64,000 bases of DNA, taken from assembly GCA_024642565.1 (NCBI GenBank), contig JAHEAV010000009.1:21611-85610 (forward strand). The letters are read 5' to 3'. The notes under the pieces are model-generated. The model ran no database searches. It was not told the origin of the DNA and was given only the letters and a program-made list of their open reading frames with translations. This DNA is from Erythrobacter sp. (GTDB taxonomy: Bacteria; Pseudomonadota; Alphaproteobacteria; Sphingomonadales; Sphingomonadaceae). Made by a program: the position numbers and the translations under genes. Shown here piece after piece: positions 1 to 14,832 of the stretch; positions within the stretch are counted from its first letter, which is position 1, and each line of letters starts with the position of its first letter.

Positions 1-574
1 TCGGAGTGGTGAGGATGCGCGCAAGGCGGTCATCCGTTCTGCCCGGCAATTTCATGTTCGAATGATGGAACAGGATCGAAAAGTTGAAGAAACTGCGCCA
101 CAGGCGCAAACTTTTCGGGCTGACCCCTGCCAGCCTGACCTGTGCCAGCCGCCACGGCAAGGAAACCAGCATGTCGACCGGATGGAACCGCACAGCTGTG
201 CTCATATCCATATCCGGGTCGGCATGATGGACCCGGTGGAAACGCCACAGAAATGGCAGCTTGTGAGTGGCTACGTGCCACCAGTAGAAACCGTAATCCA
301 TGGCTGCAATGCCGCCGGCCACGCGCAAGGGGCGCGGCAGTTTTTGCGCGAAGCCGCGCTTGTGTGACAGGTTTTTTGCGGCAATCGCGCGGGTGAGCGG
401 CTGCTCAACCGCCTCCACGATCACGGCGCAGCCCGCACCCAATACGGCGTTGCGGACAGTTCGCGGGATCGCGGGCCGCTTTGCCTTGCGCAAAGGTTGG
501 CGCCGTTCGGCCAGCATGATCCCGCCGATGATGGCCGTAGCCACAATTGCCAGAGCGAACCTGCTGCGCTTCAT
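1..574 (-). CDS. Sterol desaturase / fatty acid hydroxylase superfamily protein (partial, runs off left edge)
   Basis: Manual minus-strand translation from ATG at 574: MKRSRFALAIVATAIIGG...MDYGFYWWHVATHKLPFLWRFHRVHHADPDMDMSTAVRFHPVD; His motifs (WHxxTH, RxHHxD) of the FAH superfamily. Open at the left edge, so absent from the ORF track. Confidence 0.85.
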   Translation of the reverse strand, partial: MKRSRFALAIVATAIIGGIMLAERRQPLRKAKRPAIPRTVRNAVLGAGCAVIVEAVEQPLTRAIAAKNLSHKRGFAQKLPRPLRVAGGIAAMDYGFYWWHVATHKLPFLWRFHRVHHADPDMDMSTAVRFHPVDMLVSLPWRLAQVRLAGVSPKSLRLWRSFFNFSILFHHSNMKLPGRTDDRLARILTTP

Positions 575-627
575 TGTCGGAACCATGCCCTATGGCCGCA
601 CGCCCGTCGAGCCGCTATCGCACCCCA

Positions 628-1206
628 ATGGCCGAACCGCTCATCTCGATCTTTGCCCGCTGGCCAGAACCAGGCGTGGCCAAGACCCGGTTGATCCCGG
701 CTTTCGGGTCGGACGGCGCGGCGGCGATTTACCGCAAGTTGCTGGCACACACAGTGGAAGTTGCGCGGGCAAGCGGGGTGCAGTTCGAATTGCGGATAAC
801 CGGGGCTGAGCCCGCCGCTTTCCGCGCCGCCTTTGGTGATGATCTGATTGTTACCGAACAGGGCAACGGTGATCTGACGGACAGGCTCGACCGTGTCCCC
901 GCTCCGGCGATCCTGATCGGCAGTGATTGCCCGGGCCTGACGCCTGCACTCTTGCGTACCGCCGCCGATTGGTTGGGCAGCCGGCCAATGGTGATTGGCC
1001 CTGCCACCGACGGCGGTTATTACCTCCTCGGCTACCGAAGGCCGGCACCATTTGCCTTCACCGATATGCCGTGGAGCACCGATGCGGTGTTCGCCGAAAC
1101 GCTGCGCCGCTTTGCAGCGCAAGGGGTCGAGCTGGCGGTGCTGCCTGCATTGTCCGATATCGATACGGTAGAGGATCTGGCCCAGTGGCCGGAATACCTG
1201 CCATGA
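628..1206 (+). CDS. TIGR04282-like arsenosugar biosynthesis glycosyltransferase (nucleotidyl/glycosyltransferase fold)
   Basis: MAEPLISIFARWPEPGVAKTRLIPAFG...ILIGSDCPGLTPALL...VIGPATDGGYYLLGY; start trimmed to ATG at 628. Confidence 0.85.
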   Translation: MAEPLISIFARWPEPGVAKTRLIPAFGSDGAAAIYRKLLAHTVEVARASGVQFELRITGAEPAAFRAAFGDDLIVTEQGNGDLTDRLDRVPAPAILIGSDCPGLTPALLRTAADWLGSRPMVIGPATDGGYYLLGYRRPAPFAFTDMPWSTDAVFAETLRRFAAQGVELAVLPALSDIDTVEDLAQWPEYLP

Positions 1207-1928
1207 CGGGCGTGGCGCTGGTAATCCCGGTGCTTAACGAAGAACGCACCCTTCCGGCCCTGATCGCAAATATCGCCATGCTCGACCCGCAGCCGATTGA
1301 AGTCATCGCGGTCGATGGCGGCAGCTCGGATGCAAGCTGCGCCTTGATCCGTGCAGCCGGATGGCACCTTATCGAAACGGCTGCGGGCCGCGGCAACCAG
1401 ATCAATTGCGGAGTTGCCGCCGCGAACGCGCCGCTGGTCTGCGTTCTCCATGCCGACAGTATCCCGCCCGTTGATGCAGCCTCCGTGATAATCGGCACAC
1501 TGGCCGATCCGACAATCGCTCTTGCCAGTTTCACGCCCTTGATACGCGGGCCGGAAAAAACCCGCTGGTTCACGACGTTCCACAATTGGATCAAGACCTG
1601 GTACGCCCCGCTGATCACCCGCCCCCATCTTTTTCTGCGCGGCGTGCGGCTGTTGTTTGGCGACCACGGAATGTTCTTCCGCCGCGCGCAATTTCTACAA
1701 ATCGGGGGCTGCACCCCAAGCGATGCGATAATGGAAGAAGCCGACCTTTGTGTTAAGTTCGCCGCAATGGGGCGCATCCGCATGGTCCGCCGCTGGATCG
1801 TCACATCGGATCGCCGCATTGCCGCCTGGGGACCACTGAAGGCCAATTGGGTCTATTTCAAAGTCGGCATTTTATGGGCCGTGGGGGCGCGATCCCGATT
1901 GGCCAGGCATTACCCGCATATCCGCTGA
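1203..1928 (+). CDS. TIGR04283-like arsenosugar biosynthesis glycosyltransferase (GT2)
   Basis: MTGVALVIPVLNEERTLPALIANI...EVIAVDGGSSDAS...AAGRGNQINCGVAAANAPLVCVLHADS; ATG overlaps the stop of the upstream gene. Confidence 0.85.
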   Translation: MTGVALVIPVLNEERTLPALIANIAMLDPQPIEVIAVDGGSSDASCALIRAAGWHLIETAAGRGNQINCGVAAANAPLVCVLHADSIPPVDAASVIIGTLADPTIALASFTPLIRGPEKTRWFTTFHNWIKTWYAPLITRPHLFLRGVRLLFGDHGMFFRRAQFLQIGGCTPSDAIMEEADLCVKFAAMGRIRMVRRWIVTSDRRIAAWGPLKANWVYFKVGILWAVGARSRLARHYPHIR

Positions 1929-1953
1929 TCTTGCTTCAGCGCGGGATTGTCAG

Positions 1954-2985
1954 TCACACCTGGGCTGCTTCTGCGTTCAGGAAGCCGGTGGTTATGCAAT
2001 AGCGGATCAACCGATGAAGATAGTCCGCTCCGGTGGGCGGGCAAGCCCTCCCGATCCGTGCGCGTAAGGCCGTGTCATCGAAGTGCGGATCCCGCTGGAA
2101 ATAGCTTGCATATAGCCCTGCCACGCGCTTGTAGAGCCGCCGTTCCAGCGGCGGCAGGACTGCCGGATCGAAGGCGTGTGGTTCGACCAATCGGGGCCGC
2201 TGAAATTGCGCGAATGCCGCAATTGCATCGAAGAAATCCGTAACCGGAATGGGCTGGCCCGACACCAGGTGAAACGTTCCGCCTTCCGCCTGCTGCATAT
2301 CCAGCGCCAGATCGACAAGTGCGCCCGCGACATGATCGAGCGGCACAAAGTCGAGACTGGCCCCGGCCCGCACCGGCATGTGGCGGACCCGGCCTTCGGC
2401 AATCAACTTGAACGCCGCATAAGTGGTGTCGAACTGGCGGATCGCGCCGCTTTTGCTGTCGCCCACAACGATGCTGGGCCGCGCAATGGCAAAGGGGATA
2501 CCACTGGCCCGAACGCGCCGTTCAGCCTCGGCCTTGGATTGCTCATAACCGTTCTTGAACCCGCCATCGGGCAAGGGATCGGTTTCCAGAATGCGTCCGT
2601 CCCTTTCGCCGCAGACATAGGCGGTGCTGACATGCAGGATCGGCATGGCGCCGTGCCGGGCGAATTCGACCGCATTGGCCGCGCCGCCCACATTGGTCGC
2701 GGCATAGGCGGCAGCATCAAGGTCAAACCGCACCGTGGCGGCACAATGGATCAACAGGTCGTGGCTGCGGGTAAGCCGGTCATATTCCTGTATCGCCAGC
2801 CCGAAAAGCGGCTGCGTAACGTCGCCGGAAACCGCGGCCTGTACTGGCACTTCGCAGCCATCATTCGCCCGAATATCGCGGTTGGTATGGACCAGGGCTG
2901 TAACCCGGTGCCCCGCAGCAACCAGACGCGCGGCCAATTCGCCGCCAATCAGTCCGGCCGCACCCGTCAGGAAGATATTCAGCAA
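1954..2985 (-). CDS. NAD-dependent epimerase/SDR family oxidoreductase, translationally coupled to arsM
   Basis: LNIFLTGAAGLIGGELAARLVAAGHRVTALVH...STAYVCGERDG..GYEQSKAEAE (Rossmann GxxGxxG, YxxxK). Probable TTG start at 2985 overlapping the arsM stop. Confidence 0.75.
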   Translation of the reverse strand: MLNIFLTGAAGLIGGELAARLVAAGHRVTALVHTNRDIRANDGCEVPVQAAVSGDVTQPLFGLAIQEYDRLTRSHDLLIHCAATVRFDLDAAAYAATNVGGAANAVEFARHGAMPILHVSTAYVCGERDGRILETDPLPDGGFKNGYEQSKAEAERRVRASGIPFAIARPSIVVGDSKSGAIRQFDTTYAAFKLIAEGRVRHMPVRAGASLDFVPLDHVAGALVDLALDMQQAEGGTFHLVSGQPIPVTDFFDAIAAFAQFQRPRLVEPHAFDPAVLPPLERRLYKRVAGLYASYFQRDPHFDDTALRARIGRACPPTGADYLHRLIRYCITTGFLNAEAAQV

Positions 2986-4037
2986 CAGCTGGCTGCCGCA
3001 CTTGAGTCCTTGCCGGCGGCGTTCGCGGCAAAGGGGATCGCTACGCCGCAATCGGGGAATATGCCGTAATGGTGGCTGAAATTACCGAAGAATTCGAAAT
3101 GCGGCGCAAATCGCGTATCCGCCAGCATCCGCCAGCTGTTGCCGCAAATTGGAAACATCCGGCCCGCTTCCAGATGGTGGTGGTTATCAAGTTCGAAAAC
3201 GCGTTCGCTTCCCGGCAATGTACCGCGGTAACGCACCGCCTGACCGTAATCTTCGCATTGCGGTTCCAGACCGTTCAGCTTGAACAGCCGATAGGTCGCC
3301 GAATGGAAGGCAATCCCGCCCAGCTTCTGGGCAATAGCCGGGTCCCCGATAGCCAGAGGCCGGCTGGTCACAAGGCGCGGGTCCGCAAAACCGGCCTGTT
3401 TCGCAAGCGCAAGGAAATCAGCCCAATAGAGCGCGCCCGACAGGCATTCCCCATGCAAAACCGGATCGCTTCGCAAGGCGGCAGGCACCCGGCGATCGGC
3501 GTAGACATCGGAAAAATACAGCTCGCCGCCCTCTTTCAGCAGCCGGTGCGCGGCGGCAAAAACCGCCGCCTTATCCGCCACCAGATTGATCACGCAGTTG
3601 GATACAATCGCATCGTAATGTCCTTCGGGCAGACCCAGCGTATCCAGTTTTTCGATATCCCCTTCGGCAAACCGCACATTCGCCTTGGCATAGCCAAATT
3701 TTTCGCGGTGCCATTCGACATGCTGGTTGGCGATGGCCAATTGTTCGGGCGTGGTATCGATCCCGGTGACAAAGCCATGTTCGCCCACCAGTTGGCTCAG
3801 AATATAGGCATCCTGCCCACTGCCTGAACCAAGATCGAGTATTTGCCCCCCGTCGATTGCCTGCGGGGCAACCAGGCCGCAGCCGTAATAGCGCGCGCGA
3901 ACTTCGGGGTGCACGTTCATCATCGCGGCCATTATCCCTGGCGGCGGTGCCTCCGCCGTGCAGCAGGCATCTGTCTTGAGATCTTCGGAGCCACCCAGGA
4001 CCTTGCCATAATAATTGCGGCTGTTTTCAATATTCAT
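2979..4037 (-). CDS. arsM: Arsenite S-adenosylmethionine methyltransferase ArsM-like
   Basis: MNIENSRNYYGKVLGGSEDLKTDACCTAEAPPP...YYGCGLVAP...ILDLGSGSGQDAYILSQLVG..GIDTTPEQL...SNCVINL...HGECLSGALY; the three conserved Cys contexts of ArsM are present. Confidence 0.92.
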   Translation of the reverse strand: MNIENSRNYYGKVLGGSEDLKTDACCTAEAPPPGIMAAMMNVHPEVRARYYGCGLVAPQAIDGGQILDLGSGSGQDAYILSQLVGEHGFVTGIDTTPEQLAIANQHVEWHREKFGYAKANVRFAEGDIEKLDTLGLPEGHYDAIVSNCVINLVADKAAVFAAAHRLLKEGGELYFSDVYADRRVPAALRSDPVLHGECLSGALYWADFLALAKQAGFADPRLVTSRPLAIGDPAIAQKLGGIAFHSATYRLFKLNGLEPQCEDYGQAVRYRGTLPGSERVFELDNHHHLEAGRMFPICGNSWRMLADTRFAPHFEFFGNFSHHYGIFPDCGVAIPFAANAAGKDSSAAASCC

Positions 4038-4137
4038 GTAACGATGCGCCTTCAGTCTGCGAATGTCCGTGCAAGCAGCAACGCGGGCTTGGCACAAATG
4101 GTTTCGCCGTGCAGCATCCATTTGTTACAGGGGCCTC

Positions 4138-5556
4138 ATGAAATTTACCCATGACGTAATCGTGATCGGCGGCGGGGCCGCAGGTCTGACAGCAGCTGGC
4201 GGCTGCGCGCTGTTCGGCCTGAAGGTGGCGCTGATCGAAGCGCATAAGATGGGCGGCGAATGCCTCAACAATGGCTGCGTGCCGTCCAAGGCGATTATCA
4301 CCGCTGCCAAGCGTGCCCAGGAAGCCCGCCTGGCCGAACGGATGGGAGTAACTCTTGCCCCGCCGCAGGTTGCCTGGGCAGGCGTACACCGGCACATCCA
4401 TGATGCGATCGCGCATATCGAACCCCACGATTCGCAGGAACGATTCGAAGAAATGGGCTGCGAAGTCTTCCGTGAGTGGGCGACACTTACCGGCAAGCAT
4501 TCGGTCACGGTAGGCGGGCGCATGTTGTCAGCCCCGCGGATCGTGATCGCCACCGGTTCGCGGCCGGCAATCCCGCCAATTCCGGGGCTGGAAGCGGTAC
4601 CCTATCTTACCAACGAAAACCTGTTCGATCTGACCGAATTGCCGGGCCATCTGGTCATTATCGGCGGCGGGGTGATTGGCATGGAAATGGCGCAAAGCTT
4701 TCGCCGCCTCGGCAGCGCAGTCACAGTTATAAACCCCGGCCCGCTCTTGGGCCGAGATGATCCGGATTCCGTGGCGGTGGTCAAGGCACGAATGGAGGCA
4801 GAAGGCGTTCAATTCGTGGACGGAATGGCCAGCGCGGTTTCGGGTTCGTCCGGCCATCTTGCCGTGCAGGTGTCAGACGGCACGCTGATCGAAGGTTCGC
4901 ACCTGCTGATCGCTACGGGCCGCATCCCCAACATTGGCAAGCTGGGGCTTGAAACCATCGGCATCGCCACGAACAAAAATGGCATCCTTGTCGATGCCCG
5001 GCGGCGCACATCGGTACGATCCATTTACGCCATTGGCGATTGCCGTGATGGCCCGCGTCTGACCCATGTTTCCGGCTACGAAGGGTCAAATGTTGCGCTG
5101 GAAATCACCACCGGCCTGCCGACCAAGGTCAACTGGAAGGCGCTTCCGTGGTGCACCTATACCGACCCCGAAGTGGCGCAAGTGGGCATGACGGAGAGCG
5201 AAGCAAGGGCGCAATTCGGGGATACAGTGACCGTGATAAAGGAAGGGTTCGACCATAACGAACGCGCGATCGCGGAAGATGCGACCGAAGGTTTCCTCAA
5301 GCTGGTTTTGAAGGGCAAGAAAGTGCTCGGCGTCAGTATCGTCGGCAAGGGCGCTGGCGAATTGCTGCTTCCATGGACCCAATCGATCACCGGCAAAAGC
5401 GGCACGTTCGATATGGGTAGTGCGGTGATTTCCTACCCGACCCGCAGCGAAATCGCGAAAGCCGCCGCCTTTGCGGCGTGGGAGCCCACCGTCTTCGGAT
5501 CGCTGCCCAAGAAATATGTCGCGCTGGTTGCGCGTATCCGCAGGACCCTTGCGTGA
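4138..5556 (+). CDS. FAD-dependent pyridine nucleotide-disulfide oxidoreductase (mercuric reductase / dihydrolipoamide dehydrogenase-like)
   Basis: MKFTHDVIVIGGGAAGLTAAGGCALFG...GGECLNNGCVPSKAI redox CxxxxC; dimerisation domain at C-term. Confidence 0.9.
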   Translation: MKFTHDVIVIGGGAAGLTAAGGCALFGLKVALIEAHKMGGECLNNGCVPSKAIITAAKRAQEARLAERMGVTLAPPQVAWAGVHRHIHDAIAHIEPHDSQERFEEMGCEVFREWATLTGKHSVTVGGRMLSAPRIVIATGSRPAIPPIPGLEAVPYLTNENLFDLTELPGHLVIIGGGVIGMEMAQSFRRLGSAVTVINPGPLLGRDDPDSVAVVKARMEAEGVQFVDGMASAVSGSSGHLAVQVSDGTLIEGSHLLIATGRIPNIGKLGLETIGIATNKNGILVDARRRTSVRSIYAIGDCRDGPRLTHVSGYEGSNVALEITTGLPTKVNWKALPWCTYTDPEVAQVGMTESEARAQFGDTVTVIKEGFDHNERAIAEDATEGFLKLVLKGKKVLGVSIVGKGAGELLLPWTQSITGKSGTFDMGSAVISYPTRSEIAKAAAFAAWEPTVFGSLPKKYVALVARIRRTLA

Positions 5557-6548
5557 ACACCGGCGTCAAGAATTCACGAAACGCACCCACCGGGCCATCC
5601 CCCTTCCGGGTCGAAGGGGCAGACCTTCCCCGTGATAAATTCTCCGATCCCGATTGGACGGCAAAGGGAGAGCCGCGGGCATCGGTTCCACTGACCGGTC
5701 TGGAAACCCTGTGGTTCAATACCGGTACATTGTGCAATCTCGCCTGCGCGACCTGCTACATAGAAAGCAGTCCGAGCAACGATGCCCTGGTCTATATCAC
5801 TGCTGCTGATGTGTCCGCCTATCTGGACGAGGTTGCGGCCCTGGGCCTGCCCGCGCGCGAGATCGGTTATACCGGCGGCGAACCTTTCATGAATCCCGAA
5901 TTCATGGCGATGCTGGAAGACAGCCTTTCACGCGGATACCGCGTGCTGGTGCTGTCCAACGCCATGAAGCCGATGCGGCGGCACGAGGATTCCTTGTTGG
6001 CCCTGCGCGACCGGTTCGGTGAAAAGCTCACTATTCGGGTCAGCCTTGATCACCACACCGCCGCAGCGCACGAGGCAGAGCGCGGGCCGCGCAGTTGGGA
6101 ACCGGCGCTCGCCGGGCTCAAATGGCTGTCGGAAAATGGTTTCTCCATTGCTGCCGCGGGCCGACTGTTACCACAAGAAAGCCTGAACACCGCCCGCACA
6201 GGCTATGCCGCGATGTTTGCGGCTGAAAACATCCGGATCGACGCGATGGATTCAACGCGTCTGGTCCTGTTTCCCGAAATGGACGCGAATAAGGACATCG
6301 CCGAAATTACCACTTCATGCTGGGACATCCTTGGCAAGGATCCGGCGCAGATCATGTGTGCCAGCAGCCGCATGGTCGTCCATCGCAAGGGCGAAAGCAC
6401 ACCCCGCGTCGCCGCCTGCACACTCATTCCCTATGATCCGGGTTTCGACATGGGCGCGACACTGGCCGAGGCATCAGGCGCTGTATCGCTCAACCATCCG
6501 CATTGCGCGCGTTTCTGCGTGCTCGGCGGGGCAAGCTGTTCCGCCTAG
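5553..6548 (+). CDS. Radical SAM protein (CxxxCxxC) of the arsenic-associated locus
   Basis: GTG start overlapping the upstream stop (GTGA); LETLWFNTGTLCNLACATCYIESSPSNDALVYITAADV...IGYTGGEPFMNPEF; Cys-rich C-terminus HCARFCVLGGASCSA. Confidence 0.88.
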   Translation: MNTGVKNSRNAPTGPSPFRVEGADLPRDKFSDPDWTAKGEPRASVPLTGLETLWFNTGTLCNLACATCYIESSPSNDALVYITAADVSAYLDEVAALGLPAREIGYTGGEPFMNPEFMAMLEDSLSRGYRVLVLSNAMKPMRRHEDSLLALRDRFGEKLTIRVSLDHHTAAAHEAERGPRSWEPALAGLKWLSENGFSIAAAGRLLPQESLNTARTGYAAMFAAENIRIDAMDSTRLVLFPEMDANKDIAEITTSCWDILGKDPAQIMCASSRMVVHRKGESTPRVAACTLIPYDPGFDMGATLAEASGAVSLNHPHCARFCVLGGASCSA

Positions 6549-6583
6549 GCTGGCGCAAGGCCGTTCCCCAAGTGCCCTTGCCC

Positions 6584-7453
6584 CTATCGCAAAACTCTGC
6601 CGGCCACTGCATCCAGCTTGGCCAGCAGGGAACGGTCACGCGCATCCGGCGCCGTTATCAGCGCATGGTCCAATACCGTATCGAGCGGTGACGCTGCCCG
6701 CTTTTCCGGTAGCCCCCCCACAAATGCCTCCACTGCCTTGCGCGCGATGTCTCCATTGACCTTCATCTGCGCAATTACTTCGCTGACCTCGACAAAGGCC
6801 GCATCTTCCCGCCAGCAGTCGTAATCGGTCACCATGCCGATCAGCGCGTAAGGAAGCTCCGCCTCCCGCGCGAGCTTGGCTTCCGGCATGGCGGTCATGC
6901 CGATCACATCGGCGCCCCACGAGCGGTATAGATGGCTCTCTGCCCGCGTGGAAAACTGCGGGCCTTCCATGGCCAGATAGGTGCCGCCAACCTTGGCTTC
7001 GCCGCCTGCCGCCACAACCGCTGCCGCCGCCATGCCGGCCATCCGTTCGCACACCGGTTCGGCCATGCTGACATGCGCGACCATTCCCGTGCCGAAGAAG
7101 CTGGAGGTGCGGTTCCTGGTCCAGTCGATAAATTGGTCAACCACCACAAAATGGCCGGGGGGTAGATCTTCCCGGAGCGACCCGACCGAGGAAATCGCCA
7201 GCAGATCAGTGCAGCCAGCGCGTTTGAGCGCGTCCACATTGGCCCGCGAATTGACTTGCGACGGGGCAATGTGGTGCCCGCGGCCGTGGCGCGGAAGGAA
7301 CCGCACATTCACTCCGCCAATCCGGCCGCACAGGATCTCGTCCGAGGGATCACCCCAGGGTGTTTCCACCTTGATCCATTGCGTGTCTTCAAGCGCGTCA
7401 AGCTGGTAGAGGCCAGAGCCGCCGATGATGCCTATGGTCCAGTTACTTTTCAT
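6584..7453 (-). CDS. mtnP: S-methyl-5'-thioadenosine phosphorylase
   Basis: MKSNWTIGIIGGSGLYQLDALEDTQWI...FLPRHGRGHHIAPSQVNSRANVDALK...EGPQFSTRAESHLYRSWGADVIGMTAMPEAKLAREAE. Confidence 0.93.
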   Translation of the reverse strand: MKSNWTIGIIGGSGLYQLDALEDTQWIKVETPWGDPSDEILCGRIGGVNVRFLPRHGRGHHIAPSQVNSRANVDALKRAGCTDLLAISSVGSLREDLPPGHFVVVDQFIDWTRNRTSSFFGTGMVAHVSMAEPVCERMAGMAAAAVVAAGGEAKVGGTYLAMEGPQFSTRAESHLYRSWGADVIGMTAMPEAKLAREAELPYALIGMVTDYDCWREDAAFVEVSEVIAQMKVNGDIARKAVEAFVGGLPEKRAASPLDTVLDHALITAPDARDRSLLAKLDAVAGRVLR

Positions 7454-7502
7454 ACGACCTTCCTAGAGCACCAGATGATTGCAACAATGCGAAAAGGGGT
7501 GG

Positions 7503-8789
7503 TTACCCGAACGTGGCCTTGCGCGGTCCGAGATAGCCGAACAGATACGCGGCCACCTTGCGCATCTGGATTTCCTCCGCGCCTTCGGTGATCCGGTAAC
7601 GGCGGTGGTGGCGATAGATATGTTCGAACGGTTTGTGCCGCGAATAGCCAATCCCGCCATGCACCTGCATCGCCTGATCTGCCGCCTCGCACACCAACCG
7701 GTTCGCCCAGTAATTGCACATGCTGACCTTGTCGGAAAGTTGGCTTTCGATCTGCCGGTGCGGCATCCGGTCCATTTCCCACGCGGTTTTGTAGATCAGC
7801 AGGCGCAGCATCTCGCATTGGGTGGCCAATTCGACCAGCGGGAACTGGATACCCTGATTGCGCGCCAGTTCTTCACCAAAAGGCTTGCGCGCCCGCGCAT
7901 ATTTCACACTTTCTTCCAGACAATAGGTCGCCGCGCCAAGGCTGCTGGCCGCCTGGCGTATCCGGTTCTGATGGACAAAGCTCTGCGCCAGAGCGAGGCC
8001 ATTACCCTCCTCGCCCAGGATCACGCTGTCGGGCACCCAGACATCGGTCAGGCTAAGCCGGGGATGGTCGGTGGGCATGTTGAAAGTCCACATCCATTCC
8101 TCGATCCGGAGGCCTTGGATTGGATGGGGAACGAGAAAGCAGGTGATCCCGCGCGCATCGCCTGCTTCGCCCGAAGTCCGCGCAAAGACCGCGCAATGCG
8201 TGGCAACATGCATTCCGGTGATCCACATCTTTTCACCATTGATCCGCCAACCGGCCGCACCATCGCGCGTTTCGCGGACGGCCACGGTTTCCATAAAGGT
8301 GGCGTCGCTGCCGTGTTCCGGTTCCGTCAGGCCAAAGGCAACGCGGCGATTTCGTGCAAACCCGCCAAGGATAAATTCGCGCTTCTGTTCCTCCGTCCCA
8401 AAAGTGTCGAACATGGCGACGAAAGGAAAATTGCCGACGATCGAATGTTCGTTCTGCAAATCATTGTGAAGCCCAAGACCCTGCTGCGCGAAGTGATCCC
8501 GGATCACGGCCATCCACAGATTTGAGCCATCCTTGCCGCCATAACCCTTCGGGGCGGAAAAGCGCCAATGGCCAGCGTCATCCGCGCGGCGTGTGGCTTC
8601 GGCCAACAAGGCTTCCCAATCCTTGCGCGGCAATCCGCCAGCTTCGAAATCGGTCCGGGCGTATTCGCGGCGATGATCGAAGAAGCGTATATTGTCATCC
8701 TGCTGCTCAAGCGGCCGGATCTCCGCCTCAATGAATGCGTCGAGTTCGGCGAGATAGGCTTGCAGGTCTTGCGGCAGGCTGAAATCCAT
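7503..8789 (-). CDS. Acyl-CoA dehydrogenase family protein
   Basis: MDFSLPQDLQAYLAELDAFIEAEIRP...LTEPEHGSDATFMETVAVR...GEKMWITGMHVATHCAVFART...MQVHGGIGYSRHKPFEHIYRHHRRYRITEGAEEIQMRKVA. Confidence 0.92.
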   Translation of the reverse strand: MDFSLPQDLQAYLAELDAFIEAEIRPLEQQDDNIRFFDHRREYARTDFEAGGLPRKDWEALLAEATRRADDAGHWRFSAPKGYGGKDGSNLWMAVIRDHFAQQGLGLHNDLQNEHSIVGNFPFVAMFDTFGTEEQKREFILGGFARNRRVAFGLTEPEHGSDATFMETVAVRETRDGAAGWRINGEKMWITGMHVATHCAVFARTSGEAGDARGITCFLVPHPIQGLRIEEWMWTFNMPTDHPRLSLTDVWVPDSVILGEEGNGLALAQSFVHQNRIRQAASSLGAATYCLEESVKYARARKPFGEELARNQGIQFPLVELATQCEMLRLLIYKTAWEMDRMPHRQIESQLSDKVSMCNYWANRLVCEAADQAMQVHGGIGYSRHKPFEHIYRHHRRYRITEGAEEIQMRKVAAYLFGYLGPRKATFG

Positions 8790-10165
8790 CAGTTTTCTCC
8801 GGTCCACTTGGCACGCGCCAAAGCGAGCGCAGGATATTTGGGCATGTCGGCCGATAATTTTCTCAGTGCATCGGTCCTCAAACGCGTGAGCAGGCCAGGC
8901 GATGCCAATGTTTGCGCCCCGGCCATGATGTCAGCGGACAGCGCTGGATCGAATGACGAGCGATCCTTGCCGCGCTGGTCCCTCCCGATGATTCCCAGGG
9001 CATTGCGCGCAACTGCCAATTGGAAGCGATCATGGCCTTCGACCTGGCTTTTGATCGTGGCCAGCCATTCGGAGACAGCTTCGGCGAGTTCGCCGATGTT
9101 GGCTTCTCCGCATTCCGGATCCGGCGGTGCGGGTGCGCCAATCATGCGCGCAGCTTCGTCTGCCGGAGCATCGGTCTCTAGCAGTAACAGCAGGTCCAGT
9201 TCCTGTTCACTGGTCCGGCGGGATATGACCACACGCTCCAGCATCCGGTCTTCGCCGCTGCGCCAGTATTTTGCCATTTGCAGGCAGCCCAAGGCCCACC
9301 ACACGGTGCGGTAGACGAGCCAATAGCGAAACCGCCCCCGATCAACCGCCTGACCGCCATTCGCCTCATAAGCGGCGAACCAGTCTTCAAATGATCCCAG
9401 CCCCAGCGCTTCACGGTCGGGCCGGTTGAAGCGCCACACCGTCATGCAGGCAAAGGCAAGATCTTCATGAGGATCGCCCCAATGCGCCAGTTCCCAGTCG
9501 AGTACACCGGTCAGGCGGCCATCTTCAACAAGCAGGTTGCCCAGCCGGAAATCACCATGATTGAGCACCGGATCGACCGGTTCGGGGCAATTTTCGCCAA
9601 GCCAGCGCAGGGCCAGCGCGATCACCGGGCGGTCGGCACCTGCTTCGCGGAACTGATCCCTCAGCCCGGCCAGGGCTTCCCGGTAATCCATACGGACGAT
9701 CCCCGCTGGCAACCCTTCGCGATCAATCGCATGAATTCGTGCCAATTGGGCCGCGCATTGGTTCAGCAAACGGTCCGGCCTATCGCAATCGAGGATGATC
9801 TTCGGATCGGCCGTGCCAGGCAGAGCGCGCATAACATAACCGCTGCCGATCCCGTCGTCCGGCTGCAATTGCGCCACCACCTCCGGCGCGGTCACACCAG
9901 CAGCGTAGGCGGCACGGATGATTGCGGCTTCGGTGGTGTGTCCAAAAGCACGTCCTTCCATGAATTCCGGCGAAGGCGCGCGTCGCAGGACGAACTTCTC
10001 CTCACCGCACGAAAACAGCCAGCTTTCCATCATCGCCCCGCCCGTAAGGCGGGTAAAATCGATTGGTGCGGGCTTGCCAGCACGGGCCATCACTGGCCCG
10101 ATTCCGCAAGACAGCAACGCCGCTGTTGGAGCTTCCTTCGTCATTCCGGGATGGTTGCAGGACAA
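8789..10165 (-). CDS. Aminoglycoside phosphotransferase-fold (APH) family protein paired with acyl-CoA dehydrogenase
   Basis: DFTRLTGGAMMESWLFSCGEEKFVLRRAP...VLNHGDFRLGNLLVEDGRLTGVLDWELAHWGDPHEDLAF (kinase HGDxxxxN / DWE motifs). Overlaps the ACAD gene. Confidence 0.88.
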   Translation of the reverse strand: MSCNHPGMTKEAPTAALLSCGIGPVMARAGKPAPIDFTRLTGGAMMESWLFSCGEEKFVLRRAPSPEFMEGRAFGHTTEAAIIRAAYAAGVTAPEVVAQLQPDDGIGSGYVMRALPGTADPKIILDCDRPDRLLNQCAAQLARIHAIDREGLPAGIVRMDYREALAGLRDQFREAGADRPVIALALRWLGENCPEPVDPVLNHGDFRLGNLLVEDGRLTGVLDWELAHWGDPHEDLAFACMTVWRFNRPDREALGLGSFEDWFAAYEANGGQAVDRGRFRYWLVYRTVWWALGCLQMAKYWRSGEDRMLERVVISRRTSEQELDLLLLLETDAPADEAARMIGAPAPPDPECGEANIGELAEAVSEWLATIKSQVEGHDRFQLAVARNALGIIGRDQRGKDRSSFDPALSADIMAGAQTLASPGLLTRLRTDALRKLSADMPKYPALALARAKWTGEN

Positions 10166-10342
10166 GCGGCCAAGTCACAAGAGCGAATAGATGGCAACAG
10201 AATGGCTGTTTCAGCCGCGTGATCTATAAGCCGCGCGTAATCTTTTGTCGCGCGCCAGACACTTTTCATCAGTTTTGGCTTGTTTGCGCTGTAATCCCGG
10301 CCATTAAGGAAAAAATCACCTTGAATGGGGTAACTTCGAGGA

Positions 10343-11386
10343 ATGCAGATTCAATCACGATTGATCAGCTGGATCGGCGCGGGGCTGGTATGGACCATGG
10401 CACCTTTGGTCATGCCTATCGGCGCCGCACAGGCTCAGGCTCAGACCCAGGGAACCAATTTCGAGGCCGCTTTCGATAGCACTTTCGGAACCGATGTTCG
10501 CGCCCCGCGCGATTTTTCGACAGCCTACAAATCCAATCTGGAACGGAGCATTGCCCAGCTTGCCAACGGCGATCGGGGGCGAATTGGTGTTGCCGCGATT
10601 GACCTTTCAACAGGTCAGCAGGTGTCCGTGCTGGGCGACCAGCGTTTTCCCATGGCCAGCACCAGCAAGATCGCCATTGCGGCAACCTTCATGGAAGGGG
10701 TGGAACAAGGTCGCTGGACATTGTCGAGCGAGTTTCCACTGATGATACCCGTTCGCTCGACGCCCTTCTCCAGCAAGGTCGCGCCGGTTAAGCCCGGCCA
10801 GTATATGGCCGCCGTCGACCTGATCGAACTGATGATCACCCGAAGCAGCAATTCAGCCACGGATGCGCTGCTCAAGGCAGTCGGCGGACCGCAGGCGGTC
10901 AACGACTGGACCCGGCGCGCGGGCGTCCGCGAATTTCGACTGGATCGGGATATCGCAACGCTGGTCCGCGACGATGGGGAAATTGACCCGGCATCGCATA
11001 TTGATCTGCGCGACAGCGCGTCTCCCAAGGCCATGATCGATTTGTTGGTTGGCCTTTATCAGGGCAAGTTCCTGTCGGCAGAAAGCCGCCGAGTTATTCT
11101 GGGTGCGATGGAACGCTGCCGTACGGGTACGCGCCGGATTCCTGCACTGCTGCCGGCATCCGCATCGGTCAAACACAAGACCGGTTCGCTCAACAATACC
11201 TCCAGCGATATCGGTATCATCGAAGCGCCTGATGGCCGCGCCATTGCAGTGGCGATCTATGTCACCGGGCAGGGATCACGCGGCGCGCGGGAAGCCCGAA
11301 TCGCCGAGATCGCCCGGGCATTGTACGAAGGGTATTCACCCGGCAACTCAGGCAATTGGACCAGCGCGACCTATCCGGGCGGCTGA
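10343..11386 (+). CDS. Class A beta-lactamase-fold serine hydrolase (secreted)
   Basis: Signal-like N-term; MASTSKIAIAATFM (SxxK), TRSSNSATDALL (SxN region), VKHKTGSLNNTSSDIGII (KTG). Confidence 0.85.
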   Translation: MQIQSRLISWIGAGLVWTMAPLVMPIGAAQAQAQTQGTNFEAAFDSTFGTDVRAPRDFSTAYKSNLERSIAQLANGDRGRIGVAAIDLSTGQQVSVLGDQRFPMASTSKIAIAATFMEGVEQGRWTLSSEFPLMIPVRSTPFSSKVAPVKPGQYMAAVDLIELMITRSSNSATDALLKAVGGPQAVNDWTRRAGVREFRLDRDIATLVRDDGEIDPASHIDLRDSASPKAMIDLLVGLYQGKFLSAESRRVILGAMERCRTGTRRIPALLPASASVKHKTGSLNNTSSDIGIIEAPDGRAIAVAIYVTGQGSRGAREARIAEIARALYEGYSPGNSGNWTSATYPGG

Positions 11387-11446
11387 ACGGCTAACGGACC
11401 GATCACGGCCCACCACTGCAAAGCGGAATTTGAAATTGGAATCAAA

Positions 11447-11474
11447 AAAGGCGGCGCCTTGCGGCACCGCCTTT
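11447..11474. terminator. Bidirectional rho-independent terminator between convergent genes
   Basis: AAAGGCGGCGCC-TTGC-GGCACCGCCTTT (one mismatch), A6 5' side gives a U-run on the minus strand; lies between ORFs ending at 11386 (+) and 11519 (-). Confidence 0.75.
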
Positions 11475-11518
11475 CCTGTTTTCGAAACGAAAACTAAAGC
11501 TTATTCAGCTTCAGATTC

Positions 11519-11749
11519 TTACGAAGCAGCTTCAACAGCGTCGGTAGCAGCTGCAGCAGCATCGGTAGCGGTCGCAGCAGCATCGGTAGCAACTTCAGCA
11601 GCGGCGTCGGTAGCAGCATCCATGTTGGTTTCTGCATCAGCCATTGCCGAATCGGTTGCTTCAGCAGCGGTATCCGTGGTGCCTTCCGAGCAAGCGGCGA
11701 GCGAGAGAGCGGCGCCGGCAACTGCGGCAGCGAGAACGAACTTGCGCAT
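11519..11749 (-). CDS. Small Ala/Thr/Asp-rich repetitive lipoprotein
   Basis: MRKFVLAAAVAGAALSLAACSEGTTDTAAEATDSAMADAETNMDAATDAAAEVATDAAATATDAAAAATDAVEAAS; lipobox LSLAAC. Confidence 0.8.
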   Translation of the reverse strand: MRKFVLAAAVAGAALSLAACSEGTTDTAAEATDSAMADAETNMDAATDAAAEVATDAAATATDAAAAATDAVEAAS

Positions 11750-12000
11750 GTTTCAAAATCCTTAAACAGCGAGTGAAGATCGCACGCCCTATCAGGGTCG
11801 CACGTTGAGGCCTCCCGGTTGGTCGACTTCTGCTCGGCTGAATAATGGCGATAATGTGACGAAGCAAGCGGTTTTACATTTTTTTGCCATCATTTTGCCG
11901 CATTCTGTCCAGGATCGGCAGAATTCCGCCATTCATGATGGTTGCAAAAGCGATGACAAAGTTGGCTGACCTTGGCCATTTACGCTGCTACCAGCGCTAC

Positions 12001-14832
12001 ATGGCCAAAAAGCAGCATCTCTATCTGGTCGACGGGTCCGCCTATATTTTTCGGGCCTATCACCGTCTTCCACCACTTACCAATCCCGAGGGTACGCCCG
12101 TCGGCGCGGTGTACGGGTATACGACCATGCTCTGGAAGCTGGCGCAGGATCTCGACGATGCCGATGGCCCGACCCATCTGGCGGTCATTCTCGACAAGTC
12201 CGGCAAGAGCTTCCGCAACGATATCTACCCGGAATACAAGGCCAACCGGCCGCCGCCGCCCGAAGATCTGGTGCCGCAATTCCCGCTGATCCGCGATGCA
12301 ACGCGTGCCTTCAGCCTGCCCTGTATCGAGGAACAGGGATTGGAAGCCGATGATCTGATCGCTTCCTATGCCCGGGCCGCCGCCAGGCGGGGCTGGGACG
12401 TGACGGTCGTCTCTTCGGACAAGGACCTGATGCAACTGGTTTCCAAGGGATCCGACGAAACCGGCACCATCGACATGCTCGATACAATGAAGAATCAGCG
12501 GATCGGCATTCCCGAAGTCGAGGAGAAATTCGGTGTCCCGCCGGAAAAGGTCGGTGACGTCCTCGCGCTGATGGGCGATTCGGTCGACAATATCCCCGGC
12601 ATTTACGGCGTAGGGCCGAAGACCGCGACCAAGCTGATCCAGGAATATGGCACTCTGACGTCTGCACTGGATGCGGCACCACAGATGAAACCTTCCAAAC
12701 TGCAGGAACGGTTGGTGGACGGGCGAGCGATGGCAGAGCTCAGCCGCGTGCTGGTCACGCTGAAGGAAGATTGCGACCTGCCGCTTCCACTCGAAGACTT
12801 TCTGCTAGACGGCGTTCCGCCGGAACCGCTCGCTCAATTTCTGGAAATGCATGGATTCGCCAGCCTGTTGAAACGGCTTGATGCTGGCCGTGGCAGCCCC
12901 GAACGGAAGACCAACCTCAATCCGGCCAAGCGGGTCAATTCTGGCGCAGCCGCGGGCATCCGGCAAACGCTTGCGGAGATGCCCGCAGTGGATCGCAGCG
13001 CTTATGCCTGCGTACAGGATATAGAAACCCTGAACCAATGGATCAGCCGCGCCTTTGCCGCGCGCGAAGTGGCGGTGGACACCGAAACCAGTTCGCTAGA
13101 TGCGATGCAAGCCGAACTGGTCGGGGTCAGCCTGGGACTTGGCCCCAACGATGCCTGCTACATCCCGCTGGCGCATGGCGGCCATGATCTGTTGTCGGAA
13201 AAGCCGAAGCAGGTTGACCGCGAAGCTGCGATCATGGCGCTGAAACCGCTGCTGGAAAGTGATGCGGTCATCAAGATCGGTCAGAATATCAAATATGATC
13301 TCAATGTGCTGGCCCGGTACGGGATCGAAATATCGCCCATTGAGGACACGATGGTCATCAGCTTCGACCTCGACGCCGGACGGTCCGAGGAAGGAATTGG
13401 CGGCGGGCACGGGATGGACGAATTGTCCCAGCGCCATCTCGGCCATACGCCGATCGCCTTCAAGGATGTCTGCGGGACCGGCAAGAAAGCAATATCCTTC
13501 GGGGAGGTCGCTCTGGATCGGGCGACCGAATATGCCGCCGAAGATGCCGAAATCACCTGGCGGCTCTATCAGCAGCTCCGGCCGCGCTTGGCCGAAGAAG
13601 GCGGAACAAAGATCTATGAAAGAACCGACCGCCCGTTGATACCGGTGGTGGCAAGGATGGAGCGCGAGGGGGTAAAGGTTGACCGCGCCAGCCTGGCGAA
13701 ACTTTCGGAGGAATTCTCCACCGAAATTGCCAAGCTGGAAGGCGAAATTCATAATCTGGCCGGAACGCCATTTACCATTGGCAGCCCCAAGCAATTGGGC
13801 GACGTGCTGTTCGATACGCTGGGCTACAAAGGTGGCCGGAAAGGCAAGAGCGGCCAATATTCGACCGATCAGGCGGTGCTGGAAAGGCTTTCCGGCGAAG
13901 GCGCGCCAATCGCCAATAAAGTACTGGAATGGCGGCAATTATCGAAACTGAAGTCAACCTATACCGACGCCTTGCAAGCGGCGATCAACCCACGCACGGG
14001 CCGCGTACACACCAGCTATTCGCTTGTTGGTGCACAGACCGGGCGGCTTTCCTCGACCGATCCCAATCTCCAGAACATCCCGATCCGCTCCGCAATCGGG
14101 CGGCAAATTCGTGAAAGCTTTGTCGCTGAACCGGGCAATGTCCTGCTGTCTGCCGACTACAGCCAGATCGAGCTGCGGCTGGCGGCGCATATGGCCGATG
14201 TCCCCGAACTGAAGGCTGCTTTCGCCGAAGGTGAGGATATTCACGCCCGCACCGCACGCGAAATGTATGGCGAAGTTACCCGCGACACGCGCGCGCAGGC
14301 AAAGACCATCAATTTCGCGATCCTCTATGGCATTTCGCGTTGGGGCCTGGCGGGGCGGCTGGGGGTCGAACCGGACGAAGCACAAGCGATCATTGACCGG
14401 TATTTCCAGCGCTTCCCCGGCATCCAGAACTACATCCACTCGACCTTGGAATCGGTGCGGGAACGCGGATATTCGGAAACCCTGTTCGGCCGCAAGACCT
14501 GGTTCCCACGGATCAATTCCAAGAACCCCAACGAACGCCAGGGCAGCGAACGGGCCGCGATCAACGCGCCAATCCAGGGGACCAGCGCCGACATCATCAA
14601 GCGGGCCATGGCGCGAATGCTTCCGGCTTTGGCCAAGGCTGACCTGGGCCACGTGCGCATGTTGCTGCAGGTGCATGACGAACTTGTGTTCGAATTGCCG
14701 GAGGCGGATGTTGCTGCGGCGAGCGTGGTGATCGAAGAGGTGATGGCTGGTGCAGCCAAGCCCGCCGCCCCGCTTTCGGTTCCGCTTGGCGTCGAGATCG
14801 GCAGCGGCGCAAGCTGGGGGGCCGCACACTGA
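12001..14832 (+). CDS. polA: DNA polymerase I
   Basis: MAKKQHLYLVDGSAYIFRAYHRLPPL...; 3'-5' exo and polymerase motifs (LLSADYSQIELRLAAH, QAKTINFAILYG, LLQVHDELVFE). Confidence 0.97.
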   Translation: MAKKQHLYLVDGSAYIFRAYHRLPPLTNPEGTPVGAVYGYTTMLWKLAQDLDDADGPTHLAVILDKSGKSFRNDIYPEYKANRPPPPEDLVPQFPLIRDATRAFSLPCIEEQGLEADDLIASYARAAARRGWDVTVVSSDKDLMQLVSKGSDETGTIDMLDTMKNQRIGIPEVEEKFGVPPEKVGDVLALMGDSVDNIPGIYGVGPKTATKLIQEYGTLTSALDAAPQMKPSKLQERLVDGRAMAELSRVLVTLKEDCDLPLPLEDFLLDGVPPEPLAQFLEMHGFASLLKRLDAGRGSPERKTNLNPAKRVNSGAAAGIRQTLAEMPAVDRSAYACVQDIETLNQWISRAFAAREVAVDTETSSLDAMQAELVGVSLGLGPNDACYIPLAHGGHDLLSEKPKQVDREAAIMALKPLLESDAVIKIGQNIKYDLNVLARYGIEISPIEDTMVISFDLDAGRSEEGIGGGHGMDELSQRHLGHTPIAFKDVCGTGKKAISFGEVALDRATEYAAEDAEITWRLYQQLRPRLAEEGGTKIYERTDRPLIPVVARMEREGVKVDRASLAKLSEEFSTEIAKLEGEIHNLAGTPFTIGSPKQLGDVLFDTLGYKGGRKGKSGQYSTDQAVLERLSGEGAPIANKVLEWRQLSKLKSTYTDALQAAINPRTGRVHTSYSLVGAQTGRLSSTDPNLQNIPIRSAIGRQIRESFVAEPGNVLLSADYSQIELRLAAHMADVPELKAAFAEGEDIHARTAREMYGEVTRDTRAQAKTINFAILYGISRWGLAGRLGVEPDEAQAIIDRYFQRFPGIQNYIHSTLESVRERGYSETLFGRKTWFPRINSKNPNERQGSERAAINAPIQGTSADIIKRAMARMLPALAKADLGHVRMLLQVHDELVFELPEADVAAASVVIEEVMAGAAKPAAPLSVPLGVEIGSGASWGAAH

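Follow-up and report, generated by a model that had tools for sequence, protein, structure and literature searches.

A conserved gene module of Sphingomonadales with a divergent radical SAM enzyme as a candidate for arsenosugar-type biosynthesis

Arsenosugar synthesis in bacteria is, to our knowledge, documented mainly in cyanobacteria, and we know of no enzymes assigned to the steps that follow the radical S-adenosylmethionine (SAM) reaction. In the established chemistry the radical SAM enzyme ArsS takes a dimethylarsenical as its substrate. We analyzed a 64,000-nucleotide stretch of Erythrobacter sp. (contig JAHEAV010000009.1, positions 21,611 to 85,610; hereafter the window), in which seven open reading frames (ORFs) at 628-7453 encode two putative glycosyltransferases (GT1 and GT2), an SDR (short-chain dehydrogenase/reductase), ArsM, an Lpd/MerA-like disulfide reductase (Lpd), a radical SAM enzyme and 5'-methylthioadenosine phosphorylase (MTAP). 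ArsS is cited in PMC12159101 as the enzyme that adenosylates arsenic in arsenosugar biosynthesis, and the pathway of Synechocystis, as cited there and in PMC8552651, comprises ArsM and ArsS. In arsinothricin biosynthesis methylation by ArsM comes after ArsL has formed the first C-As bond on As(III) (PMC8552651). We find that the module of the window is real and conserved and that the kind of pathway is a known one, the new element being a divergent radical SAM variant with an optional ArsM. Our preferred reading, at a probability of roughly 60%, is that the module makes organoarsenicals of the arsenosugar type, with the divergent radical SAM enzyme standing in for ArsS.

What chiefly speaks for such a pathway is a set of companion genes that recur in ArsS clusters and beside a second radical SAM family. 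We fetched 20 ArsS loci from other Proteobacteria, and in two of them (L113 and L115) genes for MTAP, ArsS, TVP38, a MerA-like, a TIGR04283-like and a TIGR04282-like protein lie side by side, the ArsM of L115 being 61% identical to that of the window. Most of the other ArsS loci contain fewer of the companion families within 8 kb. ArsS-type clusters and the window module have these families, TVP38 excepted, in common. Their radical SAM enzymes share the core and resemble each other in the layout of the C-terminal cysteines, a resemblance that extends to other SPASM/twitch enzymes; the window module differs in its extra SDR, its divergent operons with sigma-F-type boxes and its optional ArsM. 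Our survey of the order also yielded a second radical SAM family, about 35% identical, which we call B-type as opposed to the A-type of the window. The B-type loci L150, L151, L154, L155 and L156 carry TIGR04282-like genes. In several genomes the B-type gene lies directly 3' of ArsM, including L150 and L151, which have both TIGR04282- and TIGR04283-like genes; L151 in addition carries TVP38 and a MerA-like gene, with a DUF547 gene beside them.

Co-occurrence and gene fusion point in the same direction. In a sample of 251 genomes of the order the radical SAM gene occurs in 67, ArsM in 46 and the two together in 38 (Fisher p = 4e-19, without correction for kinship), and ArsM is present in 9 of the 10 genomes with a B-type enzyme. 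In L051 one open frame (1896-3455) joins a TIGR04282 domain (184.6 bits) to an A-type radical SAM enzyme and adjoins a TIGR04283 gene (270 bits), so that both families are found above their cut-offs within or beside an A-type radical SAM gene. The functional grouping of the seven genes proposed by the first-pass annotation therefore holds on the shared ArsS companions, the co-occurrence (38 of 46 ArsM genomes) and the fusion; its assumption that ArsM supplies the first step fares less well, as roughly half of the genomes with the A-type enzyme have no detectable ArsM.

Synechocystis and the window share ArsM and a radical SAM enzyme as proposed first steps and differ in the radical SAM family and in the clustered downstream genes, a comparison for which no Synechocystis sequence was used. 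The arsinothricin cluster arsQML likewise places ArsM beside a CX3CX2C radical SAM enzyme, but ArsL transfers an aminocarboxypropyl group and its conserved cysteines number only three (PMC8552651), compared with nine in the enzyme of the window. An arsinothricin cluster was rejected on profile scores: ArsM reaches 119.7 bits against the arsinothricin ArsM model NF040538 (cut-off 500), and profile scans gave no ArsL match for the radical SAM enzyme and no ArsQ-like or transporter match in the module.

All seven genes lie at the positions claimed for them from the sequence alone (Table 1). Six form three same-strand overlapping pairs, and the described alternation of the pairs (+, -, +) was likewise borne out, MTAP on the minus strand being convergent with the radical SAM gene. 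Profile searches upheld the TIGR04282 call for GT1 (180.7 bits, cut-off 134), which matches the putative nucleotide-diphospho-sugar transferase 3cgx of the PDB (E 2.7e-19), and the MTA phosphorylase call. For GT2, TIGR04283 is indeed the best profile, although its 161.4 bits fall below the cut-off of 182; Glycos_transf_2 is matched above cut-off. The SDR start is a TTG at 2985 picked on codon score, and its best PDB match is MxaA (4u7w). Lpd stays below the cut-offs (in brackets) of NF004991 with 381 bits (620), TIGR01350 with 331 (409) and TIGR02053, MerA, with 321 (454), and its nearest PDB entry is the mercuric reductase 5x1y; judged by these matches it is a disulfide reductase of uncertain subfamily.

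Table 1. Genes and predicted promoters of the module (positions in the window)
Feature	Positions	Strand	Basis or remark
GT1, TIGR04282 family (CofC-like nucleoside triphosphate (NTP)-transferase/glycosyltransferase fold)	628-1206	+	profile match
GT2, TIGR04283-like family 2 glycosyltransferase	1203-1928	+	4-bp overlap with GT1
SDR, NAD_binding_4, thioester-reductase/male-sterility-like	1954-2985	-	PF07993, 146.8 bits
ArsM, arsenite S-adenosylmethionine methyltransferase	2979-4037	-	7-bp overlap with SDR; homology to 5evj
Predicted ECF sigma-F-type promoter GTAACG-N16-CGAA, towards Lpd and the radical SAM gene	4038-4063	+	motif match
Mirrored predicted promoter GTAACA-N16-CGAA, towards ArsM and SDR	4103-4128	-	motif match
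Lpd/MerA-like FAD disulfide reductase, CLNNGC redox motif	4138-5556	+	profiles, PDB match
A-type radical SAM enzyme (CX3CX2C)	5553-6548	+	PF04055; 4-bp overlap with Lpd
MTAP, 5'-methylthioadenosine phosphorylase	6584-7453	-	TIGR01694, 290.9 bits (cut-off 274.85)

A search with the radical SAM enzyme gave 67 loci, for which neighborhoods were counted on codon-scored gene calls. GT2 was found in 53 loci, GT1 in 51, SDR in 49 and Lpd in 47, compared with 66 loci with the radical SAM gene. The expected synteny across Sphingomonadales was seen for the arrangement GT1-GT2-SDR-(ArsM)-Lpd-radical SAM, which is retained in several flanking contexts and gene orders, and to a much smaller extent for MTAP. 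The adjacency of GT1 and GT2 is conserved among the relatives' loci, and the SDR is conserved as a neighbor of ArsM or Lpd.

Filing the radical SAM enzyme as ArsS was rejected on score, and its profile matches place it outside the ArsS family. In a sample of the phylum all ArsS matches above cut-off lie outside the class of the window, genomes of the same class peaking near 61 bits. The best curated profile of both A-type and B-type enzymes (82-110 bits) is that of the Rv1681 family (NF049973), from which the window enzyme with 82 bits is likewise far removed (cut-off 380). A profile alignment with ArsS nevertheless extends over 214 columns (E 6e-15), ending short of the C-terminus. Conservation among 66 relatives extends to nine cysteines: Cys61, 65 and 68 make up the CX3CX2C motif (CNLACATC), and Cys256, 269, 289, 318, 322 and 329 lie towards the C-terminus in a SPASM/twitch- and ArsS-like fashion. 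The C-terminal motifs MC...C...HCxxFCVLGGxxC (window) and MC...C...HCxGCTAGxGSSC (ArsS) are similar in layout, such motifs being common in SPASM/twitch enzymes. The AlphaFold2 model (pLDDT, the predicted local distance difference test, 85) has BlsE, SuiB and SkfB as nearest folds. We regard the enzyme as a candidate ArsS equivalent, that is, as a putative divergent ArsS-like enzyme. In other A-type genomes the gene is fused to a preceding calcineurin-like phosphoesterase domain (L063, 9074-10882), and the 3' end of a stand-alone radical SAM gene is overlapped by a DUF938 protein gene (L062, 10918-11595) or by an FAD (flavin adenine dinucleotide) pyridine-nucleotide oxidoreductase gene (L053, 1029-2195).

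The identification of ArsM is firm despite curated scores below cut-off. The protein matches the arsenite methyltransferase 5evj over its full length (349.6 bits, residues 7-348), and Cys25, Cys26, Cys148 and Cys198 are invariant in our alignment (A2); the NCBIfam cut-offs are unmet, with 151 bits for the best curated profile NF008823 (263) and 76 bits for the arsenosugar ArsM NF038099 (400), so that the original call stands on homology and not on its profiles. ArsM is also dispensable while the rest of the operon persists. It was found in 13 of 47 genomes searched, namely the genome of the window and those from which 46 of the loci come, among them most of the Qipengyuania genomes. Mapped onto the radical SAM tree, the presence of ArsM in the locus changes 8 times, and at least 6 of the changes are forced by supported branches; L028, for instance, has the gene, unlike its close relative L023. 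Where contigs were short, a few loci were labeled by locus only, and L014 was labeled positive as tblastn shows an ArsM for which the gene caller had preferred an overlapping frame. In five ArsM-less loci measured, SDR and Lpd are separated by about 107-159 bp, and the promoter boxes are usually retained. Loss of ArsM is not peculiar to the A-type family, since 34 of 80 ArsS-bearing genomes also have no detected ArsM.

The intergenic region between ArsM and Lpd holds two mirrored GTAAC-N17-CGAA boxes, which we consider predicted sigma-F-type promoters and which would tie the module to metal stress. They match the heavy-metal promoter of Caulobacter sigma-F, GTAACC-N16-CGAA (PMC3511200), except for the sixth base (G and A instead of C); the published regulon comprises few genes, and the word arsenic is absent from that paper. 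The window contains three matches compared with 0.25 expected, the third within what reads as a SAM synthetase gene. The boxes are conserved across the family: allowing GTAAC or GAAAC, we counted 62 boxes near the Lpd start in the 47 loci with Lpd, which as relatives are not independent, and only 24 elsewhere in about 1.28 Mb. Boxes are present on both strands in 28 of the 47 loci, and in L016 and L031 both have switched together to GAAAC. In relatives (L190-L197) sigma-F/NrsF and DUF2282 (bufferin-like) operons carry the GTAACC-N16-CGAA box. Tallied by hand over the genomes of the family surveyed for both, the anti-sigma factor NrsF is present in 13 of 15 genomes with the radical SAM gene and in 10 of 24 others (p = 0.006, kinship uncorrected). 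The window's own genome yielded neither NrsF nor a close sigma-F (best sigma factor 27% identical); both were lost, are missing from the draft or have been replaced. No sigma gene was found behind the other perfect boxes of this genome, and these appear to be chance matches because they number 14 sites compared with 42 in a reversed control. As an Rfam scan of 1-14000 returned no RNA element, we abandoned the idea of a riboswitch in the gap between ArsM and Lpd and favor the promoter boxes.

From these genes we infer the following route. ArsM would methylate arsenite to a dimethylarsenical, which the MerA/Lpd-like reductase would hold in the trivalent state, and the radical SAM enzyme would attach a 5'-deoxyadenosyl group to the arsenic. 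MTAP may then remove adenine to give arseno-ribose-1-phosphate. The TIGR04282 enzyme could activate this compound as a nucleotide sugar, a nucleotidyltransferase role suggested by its CofC-like family and the 3cgx match, and the TIGR04283-like enzyme could pass the arseno-ribose on to glycerol, a phospholipid or a similar acceptor, with the SDR perhaps tailoring product or acceptor. The mirrored pair of metal-stress promoters would drive both divergent operons, and strains lacking ArsM would presumably use dimethylarsenical made by their neighbors. In agreement with the earlier statement that the cluster has no arsenite efflux or ArsR gene, none of these profiles matched any of the ten proteins that we scanned (628-11386). 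Acr3 was not found in the whole genome, other efflux families not having been searched; as MTAP is also single, the cell may rely on an arsenosugar-type route for handling arsenic.

Several observations weigh against this interpretation. The radical SAM enzyme scores only 58.2 bits against ArsS (TIGR04167, cut-off 300), and its similarity to ArsS lies mostly in the radical SAM core, which is common to many enzymes. Outside Sphingomonadales the gene mostly stands alone. TVP38, present in some ArsS clusters, is missing from the window module, and conversely no SDR was found near ArsS in the loci compared. Among A-type genomes 29 of 57 have ArsM and 28 have no detectable copy, several of the latter being single contigs. 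Finally, MTAP is present in a single copy in the genome of the window and may simply be a housekeeping gene; because it is the only MTAP there, it probably also serves as a housekeeping enzyme. It adjoins the radical SAM gene in separate contexts (the window clade, L046, L047 and L056, in the last 24 bp 3' and on the same strand) and adjoins ArsS in L113 and L115. Most modules have no MTAP nearby and an obligatory role was rejected; MTAP is a recurrent but optional partner.

The core of GT1, GT2, SDR, Lpd and the radical SAM enzyme might instead produce a glycosylated compound free of arsenic that serves in metal or envelope stress, with ArsM as a separate detoxification gene sharing the stress promoter. 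Loss of ArsM with the core left in place, the tree showing at least 6-8 changes, would fit such a role, as would the ArsM-less half of the A-type genomes and a motif that belongs to a general metal-stress sigma factor and precedes other operons in relatives. However, the radical SAM gene accompanies ArsM in most ArsM genomes, the B-type gene directly follows ArsM, and the same companions occur in true ArsS clusters. As ArsS itself so often lacks a detected ArsM, the missing gene is no argument against arsenic chemistry, and we consider a non-arsenic core possible but rather unlikely. The same losses would also fit a radical SAM enzyme acting directly on inorganic arsenite or monomethylarsenite with ArsM as an optional later step, for which arsinothricin biosynthesis, with C-As bond formation by ArsL before methylation, provides a precedent. 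Established ArsS chemistry starts from a dimethylarsenical, and ArsM-less strains may import that of their neighbors; direct action on arsenite or monomethylarsenite seems improbable to us.

That the genes are unrelated and merely side by side, the radical SAM enzyme being a SPASM-type peptide maturase, would agree with its nearest folds, which include the peptide maturases SuiB and SkfB, and with its stand-alone occurrence in many genomes. The fusion to TIGR04282 and the co-occurrence argue strongly against it, the module stays together while its flanks vary, and in the module we recognised no gene for a small precursor peptide, short ORFs not having been searched systematically; we regard a peptide maturase as very improbable. 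Returning to the arsenosugar-type pathway, a bolder version would make the A-type enzyme a separate C-As bond-forming enzyme that adenosylates inorganic or environmental arsenic without an ArsM of its own, Erythrobacteraceae thus producing arsenosugar-like compounds under sigma-F metal-stress control with no arsenic methylation of their own. We advance this version as speculation that is probably wrong as it stands.

Being compact, conserved and present in culturable bacteria, the module, together with the TIGR04282 fusion, offers candidate enzymes for the steps after the radical SAM reaction. The recurrent absence of ArsM from operons that are otherwise complete raises the question of the arsenic source, which related strains with and without the gene, such as L028 and L023, make directly testable; where ArsM-less strains obtain their arsenic and what the radical SAM enzyme makes are in our view the most interesting points.

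Some further genes were noted around these loci. MTAP is adjoined in the window by overlapping genes for an acyl-CoA dehydrogenase and a phosphotransferase (APH fold, DUF6285 tail) at 7503-10165, a pair whose position next to MTAP is restricted to the nearest clade. A class A beta-lactamase-like gene follows at 10343-11386 (194.2 bits, cut-off 200 bits). Among the ArsS loci, L112 has a transposase-like gene, named by eye, at 6616-7767 just upstream of its ArsS-ArsM pair.

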